A stretch of DNA of 35,599 nt from Veillonellales bacterium. GTDB taxonomy: Bacteria; Bacillota; Negativicutes; JAAYSF01. A model generated the notes under the pieces. That model had not been told where the DNA came from and did no database searches. It worked only from the letters and a program-made list of their open reading frames with translations. Positions 4,173 to 35,009 of this stretch are shown here, one piece after another. Position 1 is the first letter of the stretch. Each line of letters begins with the position of its first letter. Position numbers and translations under genes: made by a program. The DNA lies in assembly GCA_039680175.1 (NCBI GenBank), contig JBDKTO010000061.1, positions 1-35,599 of the forward strand, in the 5' to 3' direction.

Positions 4173-5249
4173 ATGAATAGGGGTATCTGGGTAAAATTGA
4201 TTTCACTGCTGGTTGCGGCACTTTTTCTCACAGCCTGCGGTCAAAATCCTGCTACCCAAACCTCACTAAAACAAGGTCCGGCATGGGCAGCCACGCTGAC
4301 TCCGCTTTCCCAGGAAACGGTAGTAAAAGTAGGTATGAAACAAGTCGTTTCCGATGCCGGAATTCTCATCGGCATGGCCAAAGGATATTACAATGATTTA
4401 GGTATAAAAATTGAACCGGTGCAATTCAATTCCGGACAGGAGATGATCAACCAGCTTGCTGCCGGACAATTGGATGTTGGCGCAACGGTTACAGCCTCCG
4501 GCTTATTCAATGCCATATCCCGGGATATTCCTGTGAAAATTGTAGCGGATAAAGGCATTAACGTTCCCGGCAAGGGCTATTACCGGTTGGTTATTCGCAA
4601 AGACTTAGTAGATACTATCAAAGATTATACTGACTTGCGCGGTAAAAAAATTGCCATTGTCGGTACAGCTTCTTTGGATGAAATTGCCTTGGTACGGGTT
4701 TTGGAAAAAGGCGGTTTAACCGTCAATGATATTGATCTGCAAGTCATCCGGGCTTTTCCTGACATGCTGGTTTCCCTTGGCAATAAGAGCATTGACGCCG
4801 CCATGGTCATCGAGCCTTTTGTAACTCAGGGTATGTCAAAAGGCCTTCTGGACCCATGGAAAGATCCCGCCGAATATGATCCTGACGCCCAAACAGCACT
4901 GCTTGTATTTGGCCCGAGCATGACGAAAAATCCCCAAATTGCCGATCGCTTTATGACGGCATATATAAGATCGATACGGGATTACAACGATGCTTTTTTT
5001 AAAGACAAAGACAAACAACAAATTGTCAATATCCTTTGCAAGTACTCAGTTACTAAAGATCCTGTTCTCTATGAAAAAATGTTTCCCACCGGCTTAAATC
5101 CCGACGGTTATGTTCGTATGAAAGGAATCGAAATGGACTTAGCCTGGTACAAACAAAACAATTTATTGAAATCCGACCTTCAAGTTCAGGATGTTGTCGA
5201 TAACCAATTTGTCGATTTTGCCCTGAAAGTCCTGGGTAAATATCAATAA
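4173..5249 (+). CDS. ABC transporter substrate-binding lipoprotein (SsuA/TauA/ThiY-like)
   Basis: The solute receptor of an ABC importer, anchored by lipid on the outer face of the cytoplasmic membrane. The signal peptide ends in the lipobox LFLTAC with C22 as the lipidated residue. The mature part has the NMT1/SsuA pattern: VKVGMKQVVSDAGILIGMAKGYY, then AAGQLDVG and LRGKKIAIVGT. The family takes up sulfonates, taurine, nitrate or the thiamine precursor HMP and its formyl derivative. Closeness of thiD makes a pyrimidine precursor of thiamine attractive, but no TPP riboswitch is visible upstream. GGGGGGA precedes the ATG. It is followed by its permease and ATPase genes in the same direction. 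Confidence 0.88.
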   Translation: MNRGIWVKLISLLVAALFLTACGQNPATQTSLKQGPAWAATLTPLSQETVVKVGMKQVVSDAGILIGMAKGYYNDLGIKIEPVQFNSGQEMINQLAAGQLDVGATVTASGLFNAISRDIPVKIVADKGINVPGKGYYRLVIRKDLVDTIKDYTDLRGKKIAIVGTASLDEIALVRVLEKGGLTVNDIDLQVIRAFPDMLVSLGNKSIDAAMVIEPFVTQGMSKGLLDPWKDPAEYDPDAQTALLVFGPSMTKNPQIADRFMTAYIRSIRDYNDAFFKDKDKQQIVNILCKYSVTKDPVLYEKMFPTGLNPDGYVRMKGIEMDLAWYKQNNLLKSDLQVQDVVDNQFVDFALKVLGKYQ

Positions 5250-5279
5250 TGCTATTTACTGCCGGGAGGCGATTATAAA

Positions 5280-6050
5280 GTGAAAATTCCTAATCATACT
5301 ATTTTAATCCGCACCCTTTCTGTGTTATCGCCCCTTAGTTTGCTGCTGCTGTGGGAGTTTTTGGCTCGCATAAATGCTATCGACATACGGTTATTGTCAA
5401 GTCCCAGCCTAATCATCCAATCTTTTATCCCGCTGCTGCTTTCCGGAGAACTGCTTTACAATACTTTTGTCAGTGTACAGCGGGTGTGGTGGGGATTTCT
5501 GGTAGGTTCCATTCCCGGCGTACTGCTCGGTATCAGTATGGGATTATCGCCTTTGGTTCGCTCGGCCTTTGAACCGATGATCGCCGCCACCTATCCCATT
5601 CCCAAACTAGCCCTGATGCCATTGATTCTCCTCATCTTTGGCTTGGGTGAAACCTCAAAAATATTTACCATCGCTATTGGCGTCTTTTATTTAGTAGTCA
5701 TTAATACGATGGCCGGAGTATTAAGTATTGACAAAATTTATTTAGATGTAGCCAAAAATTTCGGGGCCAGCCGTAAAAATTTTTATCTGACCATCGCTTT
5801 ACCCGGCGCTTTGCCAATGATTTTTGCCGGCTTAAAACTCGGCATGGGAATGGCGTTAATTCTAATCGTCGCCGCTGAACTGTCGGCAGCCAAAGCCGGC
5901 GTTGGCTGGATGATTTGGCGGGCCTATGATATGTTTGATATTGAGCAAATGTTTGTGGCTTTGATTATGCTGTCAGTACTGGGTTATCTTTTTTCGCTTT
6001 TATTGGATATGTTTGAACGCTGGGCACTTCCCTGGAAACAACAAACTTGA
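5280..6050 (+). CDS. ABC transporter permease (SsuC/TauC/ThiX-like)
   Basis: Membrane component of the importer, 256 residues with about six hydrophobic segments. The conserved cytoplasmic EAA-type loop that contacts the ATPase is at about residues 155-185 (LDVAKNFGASRKNFYLTIALPGALP). Translation starts at GTG (5280) with GGGAGG upstream. It lies 30 bases after the receptor gene and 18 bases before the ATPase start, so the three genes form one operon. Confidence 0.92.
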   Translation: MKIPNHTILIRTLSVLSPLSLLLLWEFLARINAIDIRLLSSPSLIIQSFIPLLLSGELLYNTFVSVQRVWWGFLVGSIPGVLLGISMGLSPLVRSAFEPMIAATYPIPKLALMPLILLIFGLGETSKIFTIAIGVFYLVVINTMAGVLSIDKIYLDVAKNFGASRKNFYLTIALPGALPMIFAGLKLGMGMALILIVAAELSAAKAGVGWMIWRAYDMFDIEQMFVALIMLSVLGYLFSLLLDMFERWALPWKQQT

Positions 6051-6068
6051 CAACAGGAGGTGCAGTGC

Positions 6069-6872
6069 ATGAATTATGAAATCGATAGCATAACGATATC
6101 GAATGTTAATAAAATTTTTACTACCCGATCGGGACGGGTGGCTGCACTTCAAGATATCAATCTGACAATCGGCGATGGCGAATTTTTCTGTATTGTCGGT
6201 CCCAGCGGCTGTGGAAAAACTACGCTGCTTCGCATTTTAGCCGGACTGGAAGATGCCTCAAACGGTAAAATCCAGATAAATACCGTTAACAATACGAACC
6301 GTCCTTTAAATTCAATGGTCTTTCAAGAACAATCGATTCTGCCTTGGATGACAGTGCTCGATAATGTGGGATACGGCTTATGTATGAGGGGTATTGCAAA
6401 AAAAGAGCGCAAAAAAATCGCCCAGCATTACATACACATGATCGGGCTGGATAAATTTGCGCAAGCCTACCCCTGCCAGCTTTCCGGCGGCATGAAACAG
6501 CGAGTCAGCGTTGCCCGCGCTTTTGCCAATGACCCGGAAATATTGCTAATGGATGAACCTTTTGGCGCATTGGATGAACAAAACCGAATTATTTTACAGC
6601 AAGAACTGCTTCATATCTGGGAAAACAGCCAAAAAACCACCGTATTTATCACCCATAGTATTGATGAAGCCTTATGCCTGGGCGACCGGGTAATGGTAAT
6701 GACTGCCCAGCCCGGCAGAGTCAAGGCCATTATTGATATCGATTTACCCCGTCCCCGGGATATTGCCAGCATCCGAACCACCTTGCACTATAACGAGTTA
6801 TTCCAAAGAATATGGCTCAGCCTGCGAGATGAAGTACTCAAAGGCAAAGAACATGAACTAAGCGGCCTATAA
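6069..6872 (+). CDS. ABC transporter ATP-binding protein (SsuB/TauB/ThiZ-like)
   Basis: A 267-residue ATPase that energises the importer. Walker A is GPSGCGKTT, the Q-loop is [10 protein letters not shown], the signature is LSGGMKQRV, Walker B is [13 protein letters not shown] and the switch histidine is in [13 protein letters not shown] at 6060 lies inside the ribosome site AGGAGG (6055-6060), so the ATG at 6069 is the proper start with eight bases of spacing. It is the last gene of the operon and is followed by a terminator at 6876-6920. Confidence 0.93.
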
Positions 6873-22302: not shown

Positions 22303-22353
22303 ATACTGTTAAATTCTGCCAAAGATTAAATGTGTCCCTAAGAGGTGATCGCT

Positions 22354-23922
22354 GTGGACAATAAACGGAATACCAGCCTCAAAGACCTTGAGCCGGCTTG
22401 CTTCTATCTTCGCAAATCCCGTGAAGATCAGGAAGCGGAAGCCCGTGGCGAAGGAGAAACTTTAGCTAAGCATAAAAAAGCGCTTTTCCGCCTTGCCAAA
22501 GAATACGGCGTAGCTATTACGAAGGTGTTTGAAGAAATAGTTTCGGGGGAAAGCCTCATCCACCGACCGGAAATGCTGGAATTACTTAAAGAAGTCGAAA
22601 GCGGCAGCTGGAAATCGGTATTTTGCATGGATATTGACCGGCTTGGCCGCGGCGGCATGCAGGACCAGGGACTTATCATTGAAACGTTTAAAAATACAAA
22701 TACTAAAATAGTTACGCCGCGCAAAATATACGATTTAAACGATGAATTTGACGAAGAATACACCGAATTTGAGGCGTTTATGGCCCGAAAAGAATTGAAG
22801 ATCATTACCCGGCGCCTGCAAGGCGGTCGGCTGCGCTCCGTTGAGGACGGCAACTATCTTGGCACTGTGCCGCCATACGGCTACCAGATTGAGAAAAAGG
22901 ATCGCAGCAGGTATTTGGTTAAAAATCCGGAGCAAAGTACCGCCGCCGCGTTAATTTGGAAACTATACCAACAGGAAGATATGGGGACTAACAAAATTGC
23001 CAATGAATTAAACCGGCTCGGCTATGTTTCATACACGGGGAAAAACTGGTCTGCTTCTTCTATCCTGTCGATGCTGAAAAATCCGGTCTATGCCGGTGTT
23101 ATAGCCTGGAAGAAAAAAGAACAAAAAAAATCTGCTGAACCCGGAAAAAAGCGGGATACCAAATCCCGGCCCCGCAGTGAACAAATTTGGATATATGATG
23201 CTCATGAACCTTACATTTCCCTTGATGAATTTCACAAGGTTCAGGATAAACTAAAAAAGAAGTACCATCCTCCATTTCAGCTTATTAACGGTTTAGCCAA
23301 TCCGCTTGCCGGACTAATCAAGTGCGAACTGTGCGGCCTGTCCATGGTTTACAGGCCATACTCCAACCAAAGAGCCCACCTCATATGCTACAACAGACAT
23401 TGCCATAACAAAAGCAGCCGTTTTGAATATGTAGAGGATGCGGTTATAAGCGGTCTTGAACATTGGCTCAATCAGTACCGTGCCCAATGGGACGCCAATC
23501 CCCAGGCAAAAAAAAATAATAACATGGCCTGCTTAAAAGAAAAAGAACTAAAAAAGCTGCAGAAAGAACGTAATGAGCTAGCCCGGCAAAAGGACAATTT
23601 ACACGATCTGCTTGAAAAAAAAGTCTATGATATAGAAACCTATCTGGACAGGTCAAAAAAGCTTTCCGAACGAATCACAAACGTTGACAATGCCATATCC
23701 GAAACTGAGACCAGCCTGGCAAATGAAATCATGCGCCGAAAAGCCCAAAAAAGCATTATGCCGAAAGTAAAAAATCTTCTGGACATTTATCGAAAGGCGA
23801 CAAGTCCGGAAGCAAAAAACAAACTACTGAAGTCAGTTTTGGAGTATGCGACATACTTAAAAGAGCCAAATCAAAAAGGGCGAGACTTCTCGCTCGTGCT
23901 GCACCCTAAGCTGCCGCAGTGA
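22354..23922 (+). CDS. Large serine recombinase 1
   Basis: A 522-residue site-specific integrase/excisionase. The N-terminal resolvase domain (about 10-150) has the catalytic serine in CFYLRKSREDQ and the Arg-rich DIDRLGRGG. Next come the recombinase domain with PPYGYQI, a zinc-ribbon (CELCGLSMVY ... CYNRHCHNKSS) and a coiled-coil (about 400-470). The GTG at 22354 follows AGAGGTGATC, which is itself the ribosome site, so the GTG at 22345 is not the start. Its stop lies 27 bases from the sigK fragment. It differs clearly from recombinase 2. Confidence 0.9.
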   Translation: MDNKRNTSLKDLEPACFYLRKSREDQEAEARGEGETLAKHKKALFRLAKEYGVAITKVFEEIVSGESLIHRPEMLELLKEVESGSWKSVFCMDIDRLGRGGMQDQGLIIETFKNTNTKIVTPRKIYDLNDEFDEEYTEFEAFMARKELKIITRRLQGGRLRSVEDGNYLGTVPPYGYQIEKKDRSRYLVKNPEQSTAAALIWKLYQQEDMGTNKIANELNRLGYVSYTGKNWSASSILSMLKNPVYAGVIAWKKKEQKKSAEPGKKRDTKSRPRSEQIWIYDAHEPYISLDEFHKVQDKLKKKYHPPFQLINGLANPLAGLIKCELCGLSMVYRPYSNQRAHLICYNRHCHNKSSRFEYVEDAVISGLEHWLNQYRAQWDANPQAKKNNNMACLKEKELKKLQKERNELARQKDNLHDLLEKKVYDIETYLDRSKKLSERITNVDNAISETETSLANEIMRRKAQKSIMPKVKNLLDIYRKATSPEAKNKLLKSVLEYATYLKEPNQKGRDFSLVLHPKLPQ

Positions 23923-23957: not shown

Positions 23958-24042
23958 CTTCCTTATCAACACCGATGGGATCATACAAACTTACTTCGGC
24001 CCGGGTTCTGCGGGTGCTTCGCAGATGCATTAGAATTTCATT
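23950..24042 (-). pseudogene. sigK: Internal fragment of sigK (sigma-K), 31 codons, flanked by two recombinase genes
   Basis: On the minus strand an in-frame segment reads [13 protein letters not shown] then [18 protein letters not shown]. This is sigma-K sequence from the region 2.4 end onward (about residues 113-143 of B. subtilis SigK, which reads ENEILMHLR...DPIGQDKEGNE). Homology stops at both ends: before it lie the last codons of recombinase 2, and after GNE the frame runs into FPSCVYQ and a stop. The right end begins with AAT-GAA at 24042-24037. AATGA is, from memory of the skin-element work, the five-base crossover sequence in B. subtilis sigK at the same codons. The left end is AAT-GAG. 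I read it as a middle exon of a sigK split by two elements. Exons 1 and 3 are not in the window. Confidence 0.85.
24038..24042 (-). other. Candidate skin-type crossover core AATGA (element 2 / sigK junction)
   Basis: AATGA on the minus strand encodes the Asn-Glu where sigK homology begins, and its TGA is also the stop codon of recombinase 2. Position and sequence match the B. subtilis skin crossover site. The bases just outside read CGTTGCGTGAGAATAGCA, loosely like sigK codons for RCIE, as expected for half-site similarity. Confidence 0.6.
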
Positions 24043-25798
24043 TGCTATTCTCACGCAACGGCTCAGCAGTATTCCCCTCAGTTTCAGTAGGTCCATCGCC
24101 GCTCTCCGAAAGGAATTCATCCGGCGGCAATTCAATTCCAGCGCTGTCGTCAGAGCCAAATAAATATACATGAACATTCTCGCCGTCCCAAACTACCTTT
24201 TTCACAAAGGTGCGTAAGGCGGCGCGTTTTTGTTCAACGCTCATATCGTCTATCGTATCCCTAAAGGTTGTGAGCATCTGACGGATAATATCAAACTCAA
24301 TATTAGAAAGGGCATGACTGGCTGTAAGGCTCTCCATTTCAGAAATATGGCTTTTCATTATTTCGCCCTTGCCGTGCAGCTCATCAATTTGTTTAACAAT
24401 ATAACTCTCGGCTGCTGTGCCCGCCGCTTTAGTGAGTGACGATACCAGCGCGGTAATCTCTTTTTCATTCTCCGCAAGCACACCGCGCAGGCGATCTAAA
24501 TTATCGTCATATTCTTCACGATTGCCTTCCAGTTGTTTTTTCCCGAGTTCAAGCTGACGGATAAATTCTGAGCTGTCTGCGCCAAGTCTTTTTATTTCTT
24601 CACACACAACTCTGTCAAGCATATTTCCATTAGCGTTCTTCATCTGACAGACATGAGAACGACTCTTTTCCTTCATGGCACAAAGATAAGAATAAATAAA
24701 CTCTCCGTGTGCATCTAGGCGTTTACTTAGTTTAGGACGCATATAGTCACCGCAGGTGCAAAATAAAAGACCGGAAAGCAGCGCGACATTGCTTCTGGGT
24801 TTACGGAAGGACTTAGACCGATTCTGTTCTAAATATTCCTGTACCGTAATCCATTCCGTACCTTTGATTAGACCTATGTGCTTCCCCACAGCCACAATCC
24901 ATTCGTCCATGGGGCGTATTTGGTTAGCCTTACCGGACTTTTGAATCGTACGGTTATAGGCCATGATGCCATGCGTGCTGTCAAAATCTTCTTTTTCGGC
25001 AAACAATTCTACCTCGTTTTCGACTAGGTAACGATAAGCATCTTCATCAGCAATCATATATACCGGATTGGTAAGAATATTACGGAGAGCAAAGCGGGTA
25101 AACAATTTGTTGTTTTTCGTTTTATAACCGTTTTGAATGAAGTACGTTTCCGTTTTTGTCAGTGAATTTGTTTCCAAAAACACTCTATAAATCTGTTTAA
25201 TGATTTCTGCTTCTTCGGGAATGAGTGTTAACTTACAGGCTTTTTTTGTTTTTCCTTCTACCGTTATCTTCTCCACTGATTCAGACTTATACCCTGTGGG
25301 CGTTCTGCCACCAAGCCAACGGCCGGTTTTGGCTAACTCGTGCATATTATCACGGATACGCTCAGCTATCGTTTCACGCTCTAGCTGCGAAAATACAGAG
25401 GAAATATACATCATGGCTCTACCCATAGGAGAAGAAGTATCAAATTGTTCCTTAATAGAAATAAAGGAAACATTCAAACCATCCAATTCCTCAATCAGCT
25501 TGGCAAAGTCACCTATGTTACGGCTTATGCGGTCAAGGCGATAGCAGACGATAGCAGAAAAGGTATTTGCCCTTGCATCAGCCATCATCTTCTTAAAGTG
25601 AGGACGCTCCGTATTTTTTCCCGAAAATCCTTCATCTTCATATATTAAGATACTTTCGTCATTGCAATTAGGGTAATGGGCACGAATATACTGCCTGCAT
25701 AGCTCGACTTGATTTTCGATACTTTCGCCCTTCCCTGTAAATTTAGATTTACGAGAATAAATGGCAATCTGTTCCGTATTTTCTTTCGTTTGCTTCAC
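24038..25798 (-). CDS. Large serine recombinase 2 (candidate sigK-intervening-element recombinase)
   Basis: 586 residues. The N-terminal resolvase domain shows [20 protein letters not shown] with the catalytic serine, and [22 protein letters not shown]. Next are a recombinase domain ([13 protein letters not shown]), a zinc-ribbon-like segment ([10 protein letters not shown], later SHVC) and a C-terminal coiled-coil. It is closer in style to the [11 protein letters not shown] recombinases of clostridial skin and transposon elements than to recombinase 1. Its stop codon lies in the AATGA junction with sigK, so it sits at the very end of its element. In a sporulating host it would be expected to excise the element in the mother cell; that role is inferred. 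Confidence 0.9.
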
Positions 25799-25963: not shown

Positions 25964-26944
25964 CTACATCAAGCTAAGCATCAATTCTCCGTTTTGTGCA
26001 ATATCATACTGGAATAGCTTAATTTCTTTGCCCTCAAATTGCTTCCTTTTTTGAACGTAGTCCACAACATCCGCGTCAAACCGTTTGGCGATGGCACTAA
26101 CTCGCACCATGTTCATATCACCCTGAACCTTTTTATGAATAAACCATGCTTCATAGCCAATCAATTGCCGGAGAGCCTTAGCATCAAAACGATCTAGTTT
26201 TACTTCTATTATGTCGTAAGACATCGTTTGCTGTTTATTCTGAGGGTTGCCAAAAAACAAAAGAATATCAATCTCTGTCCCGAGATTAGTGGGGACATAG
26301 CTCAGATAGTCGGAGTAGTTCCCAAATATATCCTGAAATTCACCTTTAACAAAAGCACCCAACAGTAATGCCATGAGAGACGCTTCATAGCGTGGAAGGT
26401 GACCGCCGTCCATTTTATGAATTTTCTCAAATAGATTTGCCGGCTTAACGGGGTAGGGTTCCATAATGATATTTTTGCTCATCGTAAATGGATTAATTTT
26501 CAGATATTCTTGTAATAAAATATCAAATTCTAAATCAGAAATAGAGAACATTGCATTCGTGCCGCTTGCACGTTTAAGTGCAAAAGTCCATATTTTGCCG
26601 GAGTTTCTTAAATCAAAAATATCATTAAGGCGCAACGGCTTTGCGAAGCTGTATTGCGTGCTTTCCAAGCGATAACGAAAGGGATATGTTTTATCACTCC
26701 ACACTGGTGTATCATCATAAAATGGTTTGCCTGCGGCCTTCCATATTCCCCTCAGTTCCTTTACGCCTGTTACATAAAACAGTATGTAATCGCCCTCTTT
26801 AACAATAGCCATTCGGGAAAGTAGCGCATCATTCGTGGCCAGTTCGTTTTTGGAGCCGGAAACAGCTTCCGGCAATCCTACGATTCCTCTGTGCGTACAA
26901 ATAGCATAATTTCCTTCATCGAGCACAAATATATGCGCAGGCAT
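25964..26944 (-). CDS. EVE-like domain fused to a PD-(D/E)XK nuclease
   Basis: 326 residues. The N-terminal 120 resemble the EVE/PUA-like fold that reads modified bases or RNA: VKEGDYILFYVTGVKELRGI, then FYDDTPVWSDKTYPFRYRLE. The C-terminal part has PD-(D/E)XK nuclease marks: E187 in RYEASL, D226 in GTEIDILLF, E247-V-K249 in IIEVK, and Q260...Y264 in LRQLIGYE, a pattern of RecB/NucS-like nucleases. The likely role is cleavage of modified or foreign DNA (type IV-like restriction) beside the type I system. The ATG is ten bases after the immA stop with AGGTGA upstream, so it is the last gene of the operon. The domain calls come from reading motifs, and the substrate is unknown. Confidence 0.7.
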   Translation of the reverse strand: MPAHIFVLDEGNYAICTHRGIVGLPEAVSGSKNELATNDALLSRMAIVKEGDYILFYVTGVKELRGIWKAAGKPFYDDTPVWSDKTYPFRYRLESTQYSFAKPLRLNDIFDLRNSGKIWTFALKRASGTNAMFSISDLEFDILLQEYLKINPFTMSKNIIMEPYPVKPANLFEKIHKMDGGHLPRYEASLMALLLGAFVKGEFQDIFGNYSDYLSYVPTNLGTEIDILLFFGNPQNKQQTMSYDIIEVKLDRFDAKALRQLIGYEAWFIHKKVQGDMNMVRVSAIAKRFDADVVDYVQKRKQFEGKEIKLFQYDIAQNGELMLSLM

Positions 26945-26954
26945 ACTCCTTCAC

Positions 26955-27728
26955 CTACCATTTCAAAATTGTCATTGCTGAGCCATCAACATAACTGCCG
27001 CGAGTGCATTCATAAACCTTTTGTTCCGGTACTGTACGGAGAAGCCAATTTGGCGAATCACATTCCACGAAATTACTCTGCTGCTTTTTGTTGATTATCA
27101 TTTCATGCGCTACTGTTTCACCTGGCAAAGAGGCATGCCCGCCCCAAAACCCCTTTGCGGCCCGTGAAACCTTGTAACTGGTAACTTTTCCGTGTTTTGA
27201 AAAAACTACAATACAAGGCTTTTGCGTTAATTCCACTAAACGATAGCTGCAAGCCTGTTTTGATACCATAAACTCAATTGCCAAACCTGCAATGAGAGCA
27301 AAATCAATCTCAGCTCCCAACATCAGCAACAAAAAACGGTCCTGCGGCATTAGCAATTCAACAGCGAAACGGTTTGCCTCCGCTTCGCGCCCTTTATGCT
27401 CCATACTGGTTTCTGAGACGTTACACTTGATACCAAGCTGGCCATCTTTTGAAAAACTCGGGGGATGATTTAGAAAGTAATGCCCCAGCTCATGTGCAAA
27501 CGTAAAGTTGTGGCGAGCGGTATTATCAATGCGCGTGTTTACAAGAATGCCGCGCTGGTCTCCCTTAAACACCAGCATCCCGTCCCATTTATCGGGGTAG
27601 TCTTTTTGTTTGTATTTGACACCTTCACTGTCGGCAATAGCACCGAGCGACAGAGCTGGAATATCACCGACTTTTTTATCCGATAAAACCTGCTTTGCCT
27701 TTGCAACGGGGTCAGCTATTGCAATCAT
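26955..27728 (-). CDS. ImmA/IrrE-family metallopeptidase
   Basis: A zinc peptidase of the family that cleaves repressors, as ImmA does to ImmR in ICEBs1. The site FAHELGHYFLNH is at about residue 77 from my start, and the downstream Glu is in EAEANRFAVELLMP. About 257 residues, longer at the C-terminus than ImmA. The frame is open to 27788, but the ATG at 27728 lies in the end of hsdS (17-base overlap) and gives a natural start (MIAIADPVAKAKQVL); its ribosome site is weak, consistent with coupling. No HTH repressor partner is visible nearby, so its target may be within the restriction operon or elsewhere. Confidence 0.82.
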   Translation of the reverse strand: MIAIADPVAKAKQVLSDKKVGDIPALSLGAIADSEGVKYKQKDYPDKWDGMLVFKGDQRGILVNTRIDNTARHNFTFAHELGHYFLNHPPSFSKDGQLGIKCNVSETSMEHKGREAEANRFAVELLMPQDRFLLLMLGAEIDFALIAGLAIEFMVSKQACSYRLVELTQKPCIVVFSKHGKVTSYKVSRAAKGFWGGHASLPGETVAHEMIINKKQQSNFVECDSPNWLLRTVPEQKVYECTRGSYVDGSAMTILKW

Positions 27729-29310
27729 CCCCAAACATTTCTTTGATATCGCGCACGGCTTCATCCGAAAGCCCTTGCATTTCACCACGCGCGGCGATTC
27801 CGATTTCTAATTTGTCCTCGCCTTGTTGCGGGAACGGCACAATATTGGATGCTGTCCGCTTTACAGAAATATCCTTCGCTGCTTTCAGTTCGTCGCACAG
27901 CGCCATCAGCTCGTCCACTTTGGCGACGATGCGCTGCTGCTCGGCAAGAGGCGGAAGGGGAAGAGGCAAGTGAAAAAATATATCTTTATTTAAATGAGGA
28001 ATTGCTGCACCCTTTTTTGAGTTTCTAAGCAAATCCTTGTGTAATTCGATGAACCTAAGAATAAACGGCAACCATAATGCTTCTACAATATGAAGCACTT
28101 TGAATGTACTCCCCATGTAACCTTCCATAGGAGAAATAAAAACTTCACCAGAATTTTCGCCATCTACCAAGATAAGTTTAGTTCCTTCTTTTATGAATTT
28201 ACCCTCATCAACTATCGCGGGCGTTTTTTGTCCTCTTAATACTTTTGCCTCAAGATAAGGCAATGGGTTTCCGCTTGCTTTTTCCCCTTCTAATAAAGAG
28301 ACAACTCCACCCAGCCTGCACCACATCCACCCATCCGGCAAATCGTATGGGATTTCGTCCTCTGCAATAGGCGGCAGGGGCTTTTCTTTTTTGATTTTGC
28401 CTTCCCTGACAAGCTGTGCTTTTTCCTGCTGAATGCGTTTTAGCAATTCCACTACTGGTTCGTCATGGACATTTTGCGGCACAAGTTTGCCCTGCACCGC
28501 TGCTTGCAGGATGGACTTCGGCAAATATTCGGCAAAGCGGCTTTCCAGCGCGTCCAGCTCTTTTTCCGCTGCTTCCAGTTCGTCGCATAACGTCATCAGT
28601 TCGTCCACTTTGGCGACGATACGCTGTTGCTCAGCAAGAGGCGGGATGGGAATCAACATAGTCTCAACCCCTCCCACGCGGAGGTGTTGTACAGTCAACC
28701 CCACTGGCTTATCTTGAACATATTCCATCAGGTTTGGATTTTGAAGAAAAAACAAAATGAACTTTGGAACAATAGTCTCTGGCATCAATCTAATTAGCAT
28801 TAACCGTTGACCAAGACAAACTCTTATATTTTGAGGCAACATGCAAACTTCCCCCATTGGGGCTTCTCTGGTAATAATAATGTCGCCCGCTTCAGGAATG
28901 CAGCGAGCACTCCACCGTTCAAATGTATTCTCGGTAACAAATTTTAAGCCTTCCGGTTGAAATTTCCCATTGCGTACATTCGATGTGCGCATAAGTGGTA
29001 TACCTGATTTAGAATAAGGCGCAGTTTTATTGTGGCAGTCAACGACCAAACCAGAGCATTGCATTAAAGTTGCCCATTTCCAACCATCCGGCAAATCAGA
29101 AACATCATCTGGAATCGTCTGTTTTTTTTGCTTTAATTGCTGAATTCTTGCTTCGTCTGCATTAGGATATTCGGACTCAAGAAGTTTCTCTCTTTTTTGA
29201 GCAATTCTATCTAATAATATGGATGCCGGTTCGTCGTGGACGTTTTGCTGCACAAGTTTGCCCTGCACCGCCGCTTGCAGGATGGATTGCCGGAGTTGGG
29301 CAGCTTTCAT
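27712..29310 (-). CDS. hsdS: Type I restriction-modification specificity subunit
   Basis: 532 residues. Recognises the bipartite DNA target and joins HsdM and HsdR. Two target-recognition domains are separated by conserved helices: SILQAAVQGKLV at residues 9-20 and again at 266-277, and PPLAEQQRIVAKVDELM at 223-239 and again at 453-469. Each recognition domain starts after an L-P-DGW motif. The start overlaps the hsdM stop by four bases. The tail after residue 480 is unusual and ends inside the immA start. Confidence 0.92.
   Translation of the reverse strand: MKAAQLRQSILQAAVQGKLVQQNVHDEPASILLDRIAQKREKLLESEYPNADEARIQQLKQKKQTIPDDVSDLPDGWKWATLMQCSGLVVDCHNKTAPYSKSGIPLMRTSNVRNGKFQPEGLKFVTENTFERWSARCIPEAGDIIITREAPMGEVCMLPQNIRVCLGQRLMLIRLMPETIVPKFILFFLQNPNLMEYVQDKPVGLTVQHLRVGGVETMLIPIPPLAEQQRIVAKVDELMTLCDELEAAEKELDALESRFAEYLPKSILQAAVQGKLVPQNVHDEPVVELLKRIQQEKAQLVREGKIKKEKPLPPIAEDEIPYDLPDGWMWCRLGGVVSLLEGEKASGNPLPYLEAKVLRGQKTPAIVDEGKFIKEGTKLILVDGENSGEVFISPMEGYMGSTFKVLHIVEALWLPFILRFIELHKDLLRNSKKGAAIPHLNKDIFFHLPLPLPPLAEQQRIVAKVDELMALCDELKAAKDISVKRTASNIVPFPQQGEDKLEIGIAARGEMQGLSDEAVRDIKEMFGDDCNS
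27881..28645. repeat. Long direct repeats inside hsdS
   Basis: A block of about 74 bases coding the conserved helix at 27881-27954 recurs at 28571-28644 with few differences. A second block of about 58 bases at 28457-28515 recurs at 29228-29286. Recombination between copies here, or with another hsdS, could change specificity. Confidence 0.7.
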
Positions 29311-30764
29311 AACGCATCCCCCTGTTCCATGGCGGTGGTGATGCGCTCCAATATGTTTTCAATCCGTGCGGAAATGGCGGCTTTCTCATTTAGATATTCC
29401 ACGATAAACTCATCAGGCGGTAGAATCTCCACTGTGTCGTGGGGAAAGCTGCAAAGGTCGAGGTTATAGTCACCGCTCGCGGCAATATCCTCAACCGGCA
29501 CATATTGTGAGACTTCACTTTCAATACGATTGTTCCACCACTCGCGTACAGGATCGAAGTGTGCGTCCAGCATAGGACGCGTTTTAGAGAAATGCTTATA
29601 GCCCGCAGGCATTTCCAGCCGGTAGAACCACACGCCTTTTGTCGGACGGCCCTTGCGGAAAAACAGCAGATTTGTGTTGATGTTGGTGTACGGCGCAAAT
29701 ACGTCTTTCGGCAACCGCACGATGGTGTGCAGGTCGTTTTCTTCCAACAGTTTTTTCTTGATGGCAGATTTAACGCCTGTACCGAACAGGAAGCCATCCG
29801 GCAAAACAAGGCCGCACCGACCGCCGTCTTTTAACAGCGCCATGATATGCACAAGGAACAGGTCGGCGGTTTCCGAGTTCCTCAATTCAGCGGAAACGGA
29901 CTGCGAAATAACCTTTTCTTCTGCGCCGCCAAACGGCGGATTGGTTACAATTACATGCACTCTGTCCTTTTCAGTATACTCGCCAACCGGATGGATAAGT
30001 GTGTTTCCGTGCGTGATATCCGGTACATCAATGCCATGTGCAATCAGGTTGGTCACACACAGCAGATATGGAAACGGTTTTTTTTCAATACCCTTGATGT
30101 TGGATTGCAGCATCCGGTATTCTTCGGTCGTTTCGATATTGTGGCGGTCAATTACACTGGTGAGAAAGCCGCCTGTGCCACACGCCGGGTCGAGCACCAC
30201 TTCGTTAAGTTTTGGATCTATCTGCTCAACAATAAAGTGAGTGACGGGACGTGGGGTGTAAAATTCGCCAGCCTTGCCTGCGCTTTGCAGATCTTTAAGC
30301 ATGGTTTCATACAGGCCGTTAAACAGATGCGCGGTTTTCACTTCGTCGAAGTTGATATCACCGTTTATCTTGTTCACAACCTGTCGGAGCAATGTGCCGG
30401 ACTTCATAAAGTTGTTGACGCCTTCCATTACGTTGCGGATAAGCCATTTGCGCTTTTTGGTTTCGTTTTTGGTATCCATAGACGAATCCAGATTACGTAA
30501 AGCAATAAACATCTTGTCCACATGCGAAAGAAGCGCATCGCCCGTAATGCCCTCGGAATCGTCGGCCCATGTGCTCCAGCGATATTCGCTGGGGATGACC
30601 GGCTCGTATTCGGTTTCGGTAAGTTCCCATTCCTGTTCCTTATAATCAAACGCCTTAAGGAACAGCATCCATGTAATCTGCTCGATATACTGCGCGTCGC
30701 CGTTGATACCGGCATCTATGCGCATGATATCCTTTAAGGCTTTGGTTGTGTTTGATACTGCCAT
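29307..30764 (-). CDS. hsdM: Type I restriction-modification DNA methyltransferase subunit
   Basis: A 485-residue N6-adenine methyltransferase. The N-terminal helical domain (TWMLFLKAFDYKEQEWE) is followed by GEFYTPRPVTHFIVE, the SAM-binding motif DPACGTGGF (192-200) and the catalytic motif NPPFGG (275-280). It methylates host targets together with HsdS. It lies 18 bases after hsdR. Confidence 0.95.
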   Translation of the reverse strand: MAVSNTTKALKDIMRIDAGINGDAQYIEQITWMLFLKAFDYKEQEWELTETEYEPVIPSEYRWSTWADDSEGITGDALLSHVDKMFIALRNLDSSMDTKNETKKRKWLIRNVMEGVNNFMKSGTLLRQVVNKINGDINFDEVKTAHLFNGLYETMLKDLQSAGKAGEFYTPRPVTHFIVEQIDPKLNEVVLDPACGTGGFLTSVIDRHNIETTEEYRMLQSNIKGIEKKPFPYLLCVTNLIAHGIDVPDITHGNTLIHPVGEYTEKDRVHVIVTNPPFGGAEEKVISQSVSAELRNSETADLFLVHIMALLKDGGRCGLVLPDGFLFGTGVKSAIKKKLLEENDLHTIVRLPKDVFAPYTNINTNLLFFRKGRPTKGVWFYRLEMPAGYKHFSKTRPMLDAHFDPVREWWNNRIESEVSQYVPVEDIAASGDYNLDLCSFPHDTVEILPPDEFIVEYLNEKAAISARIENILERITTAMEQGDAL

Positions 30765-30782: not shown

Positions 30783-33134
30783 TTATGCTGCATAGAGTTC
30801 GTGTGTAAGCTCTTTCATCGCTTGTTCGAAATTGGTTTTTCCCTTGAAAATCTTGTTTACGATATAAATGGGAGAACCGAAATCCTTGATGGGGTTGACT
30901 TTGAGGATGTCCATGCTTTCTAAGTCAGCGACGCCGGAATCAGCGTATTTCTCAAGCAGAGCATCCAGCACAGAAGCGGCTAGCTCGCCATACTTAGCGA
31001 AGTAGTTTCGCTTTTTCACGTTGTTGGCCCGTTCTCTGCGGGTCAGCGGCTTCTGATCAAAAGCCACATGGCAAAGCAAATCGAACGGGTCAAACTCCTG
31101 CCCGATTTGTTCTTGCAGTTCCTCAATTAAGATGCCTTGCGCTGCCAGCTCATCCAAAATGGCTTGCTTGCGCTCGGCGCTGTTCCACTCAGTAAGGAAG
31201 TCATCTAGCGTGGCGTAGCGGTCACGCACATTGCGGCGGGTGTAGTCGGTCAAAGATTCGGTAATCAGCTTGCCGTCCTTATCGATATATTGCACACGCT
31301 GTTTAAGTACGGTCACTTCAACATCATGAACATAGTATTTCTGCCTGCGGCCTCCCGGTGGATCAACAGCGGGTGGCGGTTCCTCGGCTCCATCGCCATC
31401 ATCTTCCGGCGGGTCATCCGGCAACGGCGGTATTTCTCCATCCGACCCTGGCGTAAACTCGGAGTCCTGCTCCACAGGCCCGTCAAAGTCCGGGTCGGCA
31501 AAAAGGCGCGTTGCGTTGCGAAAATCAAAGATAGTAAAGAACATTTTACCCAAGTCTTCGCGGACACGGGTGCCGCGTCCGATAATCTGCTTAAATTCCG
31601 TCATACTGTTGATGTTGGAATCCAGCACGATAATTTTCACCATCTGAGCGTCAACACCTGTGGTAAGCAGCTTGGATGTAGTAACCAACACAGGGTATTT
31701 GCTGGACACATCGCGGAAGTTATCAAGCTGCTTTTTGCCGATATCGTCATCGCCTGTAATGCGCATGACATATCGTTCATCTTCACCAACAAGATCACGG
31801 TTTTCGTTGACAAGTGCTTGCCGCATACGATCGGCATGTTCGGTATCAACACAGAAGAAGATAGTCTTGTCAAACCGGCTATTGTGCTTTCGCAGATAGT
31901 TGGAAACAACCTTAGCAACCATTTTAGTACGCTGTTCCAACACCAGTTCGCGGTCAAAGTCGCTGGCATTATATTCTCTATCTTCAATTACATTGCCGAA
32001 ACGGTCTGTCTGCCCGACATACGGGCGGAAACCCTCGGCATCCTTGTCCAGCAGCACACGGATGACACGATAAGGTGCAAGAAAACCATCATCTATGCCT
32101 TCTTTCAGCGAATAGGTATAGATGGGCTTGCCAAAATAGTCGATGTTGGATACGTCTTTATCTTCTTTGGGTGTAGCCGTCAAGCCAATTTGTGTCGCTG
32201 GCTTAAAATAATCCAGTATTTCGCGCCACTCGCTGTTTGCCCTTGCGCTGCCTCGATGACATTCATCCACGATGATAAGGTCAAAGAAATTTTGACTGAA
32301 TTGCTTAAAAACGTTTTTATCACCATCTCCGGTCAATCCCTGATACAGCGCGAGATAGATTTCATAAGATGTGTCAATCTTCCGGTTACGGATGATGGTC
32401 ATTTTATCTTTGAACGGCGCAAAATCGTTTACATAGGTTTGGTCGATCAGCGCATTACGGTCTGCGAGAAACAGAATGCGCTTCTTAACACCTGCCTTCC
32501 ACAGACGCCAAATGATTTGGAAAGCAGTATATGTTTTACCCGTACCTGTAGCCATGACAAGCAGCACGCGGTTTTGTCCGCGCGTTACAGCATCAACAGT
32601 AAGGTTGATTGCGTTAAGCTGGTAATAACGCGGAGGCTTGTCCTCCCGTTCCATGTAATAAGGCTGGGCTATAATTTGTTCTTGAGTATCGTCAATTTTG
32701 TTGATTTGCTTATACGCGGCCCAGAGTATTTCCGGCGATGGGAACTCGTCAAGGTTGATGATATTTTCACTAGAATCAATCCGATTGTGGAATGTGAACC
32801 CATCCCCATTAGATGTGAAAACAAACGGTATCATCATGAGCTGGGCGTAATCCAACGCCTGTTGCATGCCATCTCCGATGGCATGGTTATTATCTTTGGC
32901 TTCAACAATGGCAAGAGGAATGTGCGGTTTGTAGAACAAAACGTAGTCTGCACGCTTGGCCTCTTTACGCTTATAGCTTCCACCACGGGCGATAATACGT
33001 CCTTTGGTGATTGCGTATTCTTCGCGTATTTGAGGCACTGCCCAGCCCGCAGCTTTAATAGCCGGAGTGATATATTGCGTTCTTATCTCCTGTTCGGTTA
33101 ATTGACTTTTGTTCACTCCAATCCCCCATTCCAC
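30783..33134 (-). CDS. hsdR: Type I restriction endonuclease, motor subunit
   Basis: 783 residues. The N-terminal PD-(D/E)XK nuclease has D63 in KRADYVLFY and E78-A-K80 in IVEAK. The SF2 translocase has Walker A MATGTGKTY (194-202), IIVDECHRG (288-296) and GLTATPKED (318-325). After a Pro/acidic linker (about 580-615) comes the C-terminal helical domain that docks on HsdM. Start: the ATG at 33134 has GAGGAG only four bases away, and a GTG at 33116 is an alternative. The R-M-S order with downstream immA and nuclease genes suggests one five-gene defence operon. Confidence 0.93.
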   Translation of the reverse strand: MEWGIGVNKSQLTEQEIRTQYITPAIKAAGWAVPQIREEYAITKGRIIARGGSYKRKEAKRADYVLFYKPHIPLAIVEAKDNNHAIGDGMQQALDYAQLMMIPFVFTSNGDGFTFHNRIDSSENIINLDEFPSPEILWAAYKQINKIDDTQEQIIAQPYYMEREDKPPRYYQLNAINLTVDAVTRGQNRVLLVMATGTGKTYTAFQIIWRLWKAGVKKRILFLADRNALIDQTYVNDFAPFKDKMTIIRNRKIDTSYEIYLALYQGLTGDGDKNVFKQFSQNFFDLIIVDECHRGSARANSEWREILDYFKPATQIGLTATPKEDKDVSNIDYFGKPIYTYSLKEGIDDGFLAPYRVIRVLLDKDAEGFRPYVGQTDRFGNVIEDREYNASDFDRELVLEQRTKMVAKVVSNYLRKHNSRFDKTIFFCVDTEHADRMRQALVNENRDLVGEDERYVMRITGDDDIGKKQLDNFRDVSSKYPVLVTTSKLLTTGVDAQMVKIIVLDSNINSMTEFKQIIGRGTRVREDLGKMFFTIFDFRNATRLFADPDFDGPVEQDSEFTPGSDGEIPPLPDDPPEDDGDGAEEPPPAVDPPGGRRQKYYVHDVEVTVLKQRVQYIDKDGKLITESLTDYTRRNVRDRYATLDDFLTEWNSAERKQAILDELAAQGILIEELQEQIGQEFDPFDLLCHVAFDQKPLTRRERANNVKKRNYFAKYGELAASVLDALLEKYADSGVADLESMDILKVNPIKDFGSPIYIVNKIFKGKTNFEQAMKELTHELYAA

Positions 33135-33315: not shown

Positions 33316-34803
33316 TTAACACTTGTCCTTAGAATTTACGAGATTACATTTCCGTTCAAGAACCATTTTTTTATTTAGTTTTGCAATATTACAAAAATAC
33401 TCATTAACTGCTAACGGGTCTCCTAAAGGGTGTTCATTTGCGTTTCTAACCATACACATAGTACAAAACTCATTTTCTGGACATTTAATACATTTAGGGA
33501 AATCCCGTTTGCGTAAGCTTCTTAAATATTGTACCTTTATTGAATTGTTCCAAATATCGTTGAGAGATGTTTCATGTACGTTGCCTACAACGTAATCCTG
33601 CCAACCAGCACATGGATATACATTTCCATTGTCTGCTATACATATAGATGAATAACAAACACTACAGACAATGTCATCTGGATTCATACTTTTTTTCTTT
33701 TCAGCTTCCTTTTCCATTAGCTCTAAATATTTGGGTTCATTAATACTCCTTTGGTTAATAACCTTCTTGACATCATTTATAGACAAACGGTTACTCAGAT
33801 TTTGTGTTGTATGGTTATATCTTGCTATGATGACATAATCACTTCCAACATTAATATTGTGTGTTTTCCCCCAATCTGTAACATCAATATAACAGTTAAT
33901 ATTTTGCTTTATTATTGGACAACTAATTTGCAAAGGTATATCATTTTCCTTCAGTTTTAATATTGCATTTTTAGTTTTTTCAAAACTTCCTTTTATTTGG
34001 GTTATTGCATCGTGAATATTGGAATCCATTGAATATAATGATGTTTGAACACTCAAGAGGGGATTTTTTTTCATTTCTTCGATGATATCTTTATTTAGTA
34101 AAGTTAAATTACTAAGAACATTTACGGAAAAGTTGTATTCATTACATTTTTTCAGGAAATCGATAAAGTGATGGTGCATCATGGGTTCACCGCCACTTAG
34201 CGTTACATGCAACAAATTCATTTCTTTACATTGTTCTAAAATATTATAAAACAAATCAGGATCGATATGATTTACCTTGTTATCATGTGGGATATAACAA
34301 TGTACACATCTTTCGTTGCATTTGCTCGTAATTTCTATGTGTAAATTTGTAAGCTGCGGTTCGTTTTTAAAGTATTCATCAAAAAATTCTTGTGTAGATT
34401 TTTCAAAACCCTTAGTCGATGAACAATCCTTTTTTTCGCTTTTTGGTTCCACTACCTTGTATGAAAACACCGAGTCTTTTTCATTGCATTCTTGCAAAGT
34501 TTCGCCAGATACAACAAACCCGTCCAACTCAAGTAAGCAATAAAATTCTTTAGCATCGACCTTAATTGTTTCAATGTCCGCATTTGTAAATTGTATGCTT
34601 ATTTTTTTAGCGAGATCATCAAGCGTCTGTGGTTTCTTACCTAAAACAGATAAAAACACCGCTCCGCTCTGCGATACAATTTTGTCTCCAATATCATCTC
34701 TGTCATTATTCGCTTGTCTGTACCCGAAATTTCTATTGTCTGTTATATAGCCAAAAAACTTATAGTTTCTGAATATAACATTAGATTTTTGTTTGAAATA
34801 CAT
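33316..34803 (-). CDS. Radical SAM/SPASM peptide maturase with N-terminal PqqD-like (RRE) domain
   Basis: A 495-residue RiPP-modifying enzyme. Residues about 35-105 (GDKIVSQSGAVFLSVLG ... EFYCLLELDGFVV) look like a PqqD-type recognition element that binds a leader peptide. The radical SAM core has C162-x3-C166-x2-C169 (CNERCVHC) and GGEP at 204-207. The C-terminal SPASM region has Cys 380, 383, 388, 398, 438, 441, 447, 450 and 471 (for example CPENEFCTMC), enough for two auxiliary Fe-S clusters. AAGGAG lies seven bases before the ATG. The architecture is like Cys-rich-peptide maturases of Clostridia. A 38-residue precursor gene lies 71 bases upstream. The AT-rich base use differs from the chromosome at left. 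Confidence 0.9.
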   Translation of the reverse strand: MYFKQKSNVIFRNYKFFGYITDNRNFGYRQANNDRDDIGDKIVSQSGAVFLSVLGKKPQTLDDLAKKISIQFTNADIETIKVDAKEFYCLLELDGFVVSGETLQECNEKDSVFSYKVVEPKSEKKDCSSTKGFEKSTQEFFDEYFKNEPQLTNLHIEITSKCNERCVHCYIPHDNKVNHIDPDLFYNILEQCKEMNLLHVTLSGGEPMMHHHFIDFLKKCNEYNFSVNVLSNLTLLNKDIIEEMKKNPLLSVQTSLYSMDSNIHDAITQIKGSFEKTKNAILKLKENDIPLQISCPIIKQNINCYIDVTDWGKTHNINVGSDYVIIARYNHTTQNLSNRLSINDVKKVINQRSINEPKYLELMEKEAEKKKSMNPDDIVCSVCYSSICIADNGNVYPCAGWQDYVVGNVHETSLNDIWNNSIKVQYLRSLRKRDFPKCIKCPENEFCTMCMVRNANEHPLGDPLAVNEYFCNIAKLNKKMVLERKCNLVNSKDKC

Positions 34804-34874: not shown

Positions 34875-34991
34875 TTAGCGTCCGCTTGGTCCTGGAGGAT
34901 TGCAAGGTCTTCCGCTCGGTTTACTATTCGGACGGCATTGTGCCATCTGTACAGTACTTTGTGCCAAGATTACAGGCTTTTCATATACCAT
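34875..34991 (-). CDS. Candidate RiPP precursor peptide, 38 residues
   Basis: A short gene found by reading the region upstream of the maturase. AGGAGGTGG (34997-35005) precedes the ATG by five bases. The product starts MVYEKPVILAQS, a leader-like segment, and ends in the core CRPNSKPSGRPCNPPGPSGR. The core has two Cys eleven residues apart, six Pro, and the four-residue motif PSGR twice, with the second copy at the very C-terminus. The short leader with K-P near the start is common in precursors of radical-SAM RiPPs. Expected modification is a thioether or carbon-carbon link at Cys or neighbours by the downstream enzyme. No transporter or peptidase gene is seen next to it. Confidence 0.75.
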   Translation of the reverse strand: MVYEKPVILAQSTVQMAQCRPNSKPSGRPCNPPGPSGR

Positions 34992-35009
34992 TTTTTCCAC
35001 CTCCTTTCA

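Follow-up and report, generated by a model that had tools for sequence, protein, structure and literature searches.

What does a peptidase of the repressor-cutting kind do behind a type I restriction-modification (R-M) operon when no repressor gene stands beside it? The question is raised by a contig of a Veillonellales bacterium (JBDKTO010000061.1, assembly GCA_039680175.1), analysed over its whole 35,599 nucleotides and called the window below, which carries on its minus strand the genes hsdR-hsdM-hsdS-immA(capP) followed by a gene for an EVE-PD-(D/E)XK nuclease. No open reading frame (ORF) for a helix-turn-helix (HTH) protein adjoins capP in the window; its upstream neighbour is hsdS, the gene of the specificity subunit. 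The preliminary description of this DNA had called an ImmA peptidase without an HTH partner odd: the HTH gene is indeed missing, but the oddness is better explained by a C-terminal tail of HsdS as the apparent target. On the strength of sequence comparison and analogy, we consider it somewhat probable that HsdS itself stands in for the missing HTH repressor as the substrate of CapP, which would give the operon a built-in brake on restriction, probably triggered by single-stranded DNA (ssDNA). The features concerned are the following.

hsdR, 30783..33134, minus strand: type I restriction subunit, EcoAI/EcoEI-like (PADLOC REase_I, 1102 bits; Pfam ResIII and EcoEI_R_C).
hsdM, 29307..30764, minus strand: type I N6-methyladenine (m6A) methyltransferase subunit (Pfam N6_Mtase, E=2.9e-65, and HsdM_N).
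hsdS, 27712..29310, minus strand: specificity subunit; it has two target-recognition domains and is extended at the C-terminus (Pfam Methylase_S in two stretches, E=1e-28).
HsdS residues 477-532, 27715..27882, minus strand: C-terminal extension, ...NIVPFPQQGEDKLEIGIAARGEMQGLSDEAVRDIKEMFGDDCNS, conserved only in HsdS with CapP encoded directly downstream; proposed CapP substrate tail.
Codons of the HsdS motif A506-A507-R508-G509, 27784..27795, minus strand: predicted cut before R508, by analogy with Leu106-Arg107 of DdrO.
capP/immA, 26955..27728, minus strand: CapP-family M78 metallopeptidase of 257 amino acids.
EVE-PD-(D/E)XK nuclease gene, 25964..26944, minus strand: 326 amino acids; passenger gene (Pfam EVE, E=2.1e-4).

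The gene order, the 17-base overlap of hsdS and capP (27712-27728) and the 10-base gap between capP and the EVE gene (26945-26954) are exactly as first described. The type I system is complete and ordinary, an EcoAI/EcoEI-like enzyme with hsdR, hsdM and a two-domain hsdS all present.

Six loci share the order hsdRMS-capP: the window, L007, and four that were found by searching with the peptidase and with HsdS (L074, L093, L131 and L132). The overlap of hsdS and capP is 4 or 17 bases across the six, and 4 bases in L074, L093, L131 and L132; no HTH gene adjoins capP in the window, L007, L074 or L131. What follows capP varies. It is the EVE nuclease gene in the window and L007 (two of six). L074 has instead a gene whose 214-residue product shows a PD-(D/E)XK-like pattern and matches REase_II faintly (E=0.001), L093 has the Hachiman genes hamA (E=1.8e-24) and hamB (E=1.9e-101), and nothing resembling a defence payload lies directly behind capP in L131 and L132. 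The nuclease gene also occurs beside a capP remnant (L008) and alone, intact, without capP or hsd genes (L032). CapP goes with hsdS, not with the EVE nuclease. Of the hsdRMS-immA-EVE order for which a survey had been suggested, the hsdRMS-capP part is kept in six loci and the nuclease follows in only two, and the view of specificity subunit, peptidase and nuclease as one functional unit is not supported. We read the EVE nuclease as an interchangeable payload, one among several defence genes that can occupy the place behind capP. The HsdS-CapP pairing is the more interesting content of the locus.

Large serine recombinases lie near several of the hsdRMS-capP loci. In L093 (2574-12125), hamAB directly follows hsdRMS-capP on a contig classed as viral, and hsdM is split into two overlapping frames (4947-5276 and 5264-6382). 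L007, from another metagenome-assembled genome, has an EVE gene 96% identical and an HsdR 95% identical to those of the window, with differing HsdS recognition domains; its hsdM is more diverged (synonymous divergence, dS, 0.77 vs about 0.25), a pattern pointing to recombination within the operon.

Family and fold place the peptidase in the DNA-damage-sensing class, in agreement with the preliminary description. It matches Pfam Peptidase_M78 (E=6.5e-13), with HExxH at H79-E80...H83, and the PADLOC capP model over its full length (residues 9-255, E=1.3e-47). Its best match in the PDB is CapP 7t5t (phmmer E=2.7e-9, Foldseek E=8.6e-14), followed in the fold ranking by Deinococcus IrrE/PprI, including the PprI-ssDNA complex 8sln. 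R72, invariant in relatives and seven residues before the HExxH histidine H79, corresponds in sequence position to PprI R85, which is part of an ssDNA-binding patch (PMC10904395). The ratio of nonsynonymous to synonymous substitution rates (dN/dS) of 0.168 against the nearest copy indicates purifying selection. Activation by ssDNA is established for PprI (PMC10904395) and published for CapP, which cleaves CapH, as described in PMC13373217.

All six HsdS proteins of the hsdRMS-capP loci share a C-terminal extension containing [AV]ARG. Its core aligns as NI[IV]xFP...[AV]ARG[DE]...S.E....I...F and is kept across the six despite their differing recognition domains. When every HsdS entry of the retrieved loci was surveyed, the HsdS genes having been fetched by core similarity, the tail was present in 6 of 6 HsdS with ImmA directly downstream and in 0 of 39 others (Fisher 1.2e-7); a few of the 39 are half-subunits. 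Where the last EQ-x-RIV motif could be placed, CapP-linked HsdS extend 75-76 residues beyond it, compared with 18-46 in most HsdS without ImmA. Conservation of the tail as a by-product of the hsdS/capP overlap was considered and rejected; the overlap spans only the last 1 to 5 codons.

Small, unrelated proteins whose genes lie immediately 5' of other ImmA genes carry a similar tail at their C-terminus, among them MqsA-like HTH proteins and proteins without an HTH domain. A hidden Markov model trained on nine such ImmA partners, with HsdS excluded, ranked 1,971 C-termini and placed at the top the HsdS tails of L074 (E=0.005) and L093 (0.023), with an independent ImmA partner from L088 (0.0067) between the two. 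Each of the six HsdS tails outscores at least 995 of 1000 of its own composition-preserving shuffles, and the mean tail score over three lineages exceeds 1000 of 1000; among genes downstream of ImmA, 0 of 32 matched the tail. Alignment of HsdS tails with partner tails by hhalign gave a score of 19.0, against 300 column shuffles of which one artefact reached 133 and the next 18.5; this is suggestive only. Searching plasmids with the HsdS tail by tblastn gave a single chance-level match. Recurrent modules (L046, L047, L049-L052, L060 and L088) often comprise, in this order, a DUF4258-like small gene, an MqsA-like zinc-HTH protein and an ImmA of ~255 amino acids. The HTH protein of these modules carries at its end the AAR tail seen on HsdS, which suggests that this tail may be a general substrate tag for ImmA.

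The HsdS tail also resembles a known cleavage site. In the 129-residue DdrO, IrrE cleaves the Leu106-Arg107 bond, which lies in the loop before the last helix and 23 residues from the end (PMC8072749); in D. geothermalis DdrO, this loop has the sequence E116-L117-R118-G119, and with R118A the ssDNA-stimulated cleavage is lost (PMC10904395). The HsdS tail has the Arg-Gly pair too, at about the same distance from the C-terminus: the [AV]ARG arginine, with Gly directly after it, stands 24-25 residues before the end. A cut before this Arg, if so placed, would leave an HsdS ending in IAA, LAA or LVA, which we take to resemble ssrA-type ClpXP degrons.

Considering these likenesses, we propose a scheme in which (i) hsdR-hsdM-hsdS-capP forms the core unit, a type I R-M variant of four genes whose HsdS would have gained a C-terminal tail of ~50 residues imitating the peptidase-sensitive tail of the small repressors cut by CapP, ImmA and IrrE; (ii) since HsdS carries this repressor-like tail, CapP would be dedicated to HsdS and need no HTH partner; (iii) ssDNA from restriction or DNA damage would most likely activate CapP, as shown for CapP and PprI elsewhere; (iv) the CapP cut in HsdS would fall immediately N-terminal to the [AV]ARG arginine, between A507 and R508 in the window; (v) the cut would leave HsdS inactive or destabilised, with an ssrA-like IAA, LAA or LVA end, and restriction would be switched off, as a self-encoded form of restriction alleviation. 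The proposal in its most specific form, with CapP as the operon's own ssDNA-activated off-switch that cuts before Arg508 and exposes a ClpXP-type end, and with the tail as a portable 'cut me' tag for ImmA-class peptidases that is attachable to unrelated proteins, is tentative, and we hold it to be more doubtful than probable.

Several known systems come close to this arrangement. The CapH-CapP pairs of cyclic oligonucleotide-based antiphage signalling systems (CBASS) and other immune operons have the same peptidase family and fold, a defence operon as setting, and an upstream partner gene that abuts or overlaps the peptidase gene. Here, in contrast, there is no CapH and the partner is an HsdS with a partner-like tail, so that control would hit the enzyme and not transcription. 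IrrE/PprI-DdrO of Deinococcus shares the fold, HExxH, the Arg at position -7 and a target Arg-Gly about 23 residues from the C-terminus, but DdrO is an XRE repressor, whereas in this operon a type I specificity subunit carries the tail. Redirection of this kind, here putatively towards an enzyme subunit, has a precedent in VapKSC, in which a transcription-regulating pair is reused for direct toxin control (PMC13373217).

Several points weigh against HsdS being the substrate and CapP its off-switch. The six tailed loci represent about three lineages, and for this reason as well as for the half-subunits among the 39 the Fisher value given above overstates independence; all six could descend from one ancestral HsdS-CapP pair. 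The window's own HsdS tail scores weakly by itself (E=4.5), and in an AlphaFold model of the tail fused to CapP the peptidase folds well and the tail is unplaced (predicted local distance difference test, pLDDT, under 50). The sign of the regulation is a guess, activation by tail removal being possible instead, and an HsdS without its last ~25 residues could still be active.

Among the other explanations, the one that survives best, although we regard it as unlikely, is a trans action of CapP: its target would be an HTH repressor of the CapH/ImmR type, encoded elsewhere in the genome and controlling the operon. All studied targets of CapP, IrrE and ImmA are HTH repressors, and many ImmA genes have an HTH gene directly upstream. 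However, four of the loci, the window among them, lack an adjacent HTH gene, the HsdS of all six carries the partner-like tail, and no trans candidate was identified, the single family search tried having matched an unrelated model. The tail might also tether CapP to the R-M complex to cut another protein (of the host, of a phage, or HsdR), HsdS not being the substrate. The same tail data fit this explanation, and the computed results do not separate docking from cleavage; yet the tail resembles the cleaved DdrO loop in its Arg-Gly and C-terminal distance, and not just a binding surface, and we give docking a low probability.

The preliminary description favoured a two-layer defence, with CapP as an infection- or damage-sensing switch and the EVE nuclease directed against modified phage DNA. 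Its components (type I R-M, peptidase and EVE nuclease) are all present and tightly packed, catalytic residues are conserved, capP and the EVE gene are under purifying selection, and the capP-EVE junction is kept in the L008 remnant. The coupling differs, however, in that CapP pairs with hsdS: four of the six hsdS-capP loci are without the nuclease, and L032 has the nuclease without CapP, so that this two-layer scheme appears very unlikely. RosmerTA (RmrA-RmrT) likewise combines an ImmA peptidase with varying neighbours in a defence context, but RmrA carries HTH and ImmA domains, whereas here there is no HTH, the payload is optional and the fixed partner is the upstream hsdS. That the ImmA protein is an antitoxin to a downstream nuclease toxin, the pair being parked behind the R-M operon, is hardly plausible: different toxins do pair with an ImmA protein in RosmerTA (PMC10440598) and the gene behind capP varies, yet CapP (257 amino acids, without HTH) is matched by RmrA models in the peptidase part only (positions ~140-290 of ~380) and by the capP model over its full length, L131 and L132 have no toxin gene, and capP stands behind hsdS every time.

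The product of the passenger gene is probably a restriction endonuclease that brings its own means of recognising DNA. Its Pfam EVE match lies just below the curated cut-off (21.8 vs 23 bits), UPF0310/EVE proteins of the PDB are weak matches, and the PD-(D/E)XK half has no Pfam match of its own. The nuclease residues E187, D226, E247 and K249, singled out beforehand, are invariant in four intact homologues (96, 75 and 49% identity) and have conserved counterparts in a related family of ~385-residue proteins; a dN/dS of 0.066 against the nearest copy indicates purifying selection. The profile of the nuclease aligns end to end with this EVE/NucS-like family (hhalign 96.8%, E=2.8e-10), which weakly matches NucS_C and whose members lie beside a D12 Dam-type methylase (L033), between D12 and N6/N4 methylases (L034) or in another setting (L036). 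These relatives sit where a restriction endonuclease would, so that in the EVE-like half recognition of a target sequence may accompany, or replace, recognition of a modification. The EVE-PD-(D/E)XK type IV restriction enzymes (PMC7641849) are alike in domain order and defence location; here, in contrast, the EVE match is weak and the relatives in L033 and L034 adjoin Dam-type methylases like an ordinary restriction enzyme. L033 (4288-6363) and L034 (5229-8046) are arranged like DpnII systems, except that the restriction enzyme is of the EVE type. An AlphaFold model of the nuclease from three sequences was unusable (pLDDT 33).

Relatives of the nuclease are rare: besides its own genome, one was found among 300 genomes from the class, a few among 391 from another class and two in a species-level collection, and none in plasmids and phages (tblastn) or in IMG/VR (scan). 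In L008, the intact EVE gene stands beside an 84-residue remnant of CapP (residues 174-257 only). Truncated remnants of the nuclease gene itself lie near AbiEii-like genes in L030 (8752-9617), which also has a BrxC-like gene, and in L031 (4552-5178); the nuclease decays in these other defence islands.

Two recombinase genes lie on one side of the operon in the window.

Large serine recombinase, Ccr/XisF-like, 24038..25798, minus strand: probable mobility gene adjoining the operon (below cut-off for NCBIfam CcrC/XisF-like, at E about 1e-37).
Second large serine recombinase, 22345..23922, plus strand (NCBIfam XisF-like, E=2.5e-29, below cut-off).

On the other side, a radical SAM/SPASM-type protein (33316-34803, minus strand) matches many peptide-maturase models (E about 1e-20 to 1e-29, none above cut-off). 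Its gene lies directly downstream of a 41-residue ORF ending CRPNSKPSGRPCNPPGPSGR (34875-35000, minus strand), and the two look like the precursor and maturase of an unclassified ribosomally synthesised and post-translationally modified peptide beside the R-M operon.

When DNA is damaged, and when they enter a new host, type I systems have to be held in check by proteolysis; how the host is spared at entry and in the course of DNA repair is understood only in part. Host ClpXP restrains EcoKI and EcoAI through HsdR, whose ClpX degron has been sought and not found (PMC4231737). Our proposal has in common with this alleviation a type I enzyme under proteolytic control tied to DNA damage, but would place the protease in the operon and the likely site on HsdS, whereas there host ClpXP acts on HsdR. 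No description of CapP or ImmA acting on HsdS was found among the openly readable papers searched, a scope that makes this weak evidence of absence. Both kinds of component are already known; what appears to be new is a type I R-M system with a CapP-type peptidase putatively redirected to an enzyme subunit. If true, the restraint would be self-contained: a peptidase encoded in the operon and acting at a site on HsdS would travel with the mobile system and be independent of host ClpXP, and the CapP/ImmA/IrrE peptidases would be extended from cutting repressors to cutting enzyme subunits. The C-terminal [AV]AR tail would then provide a sequence rule for finding further substrates, and the type I operon would serve as a loading dock for interchangeable nucleases.
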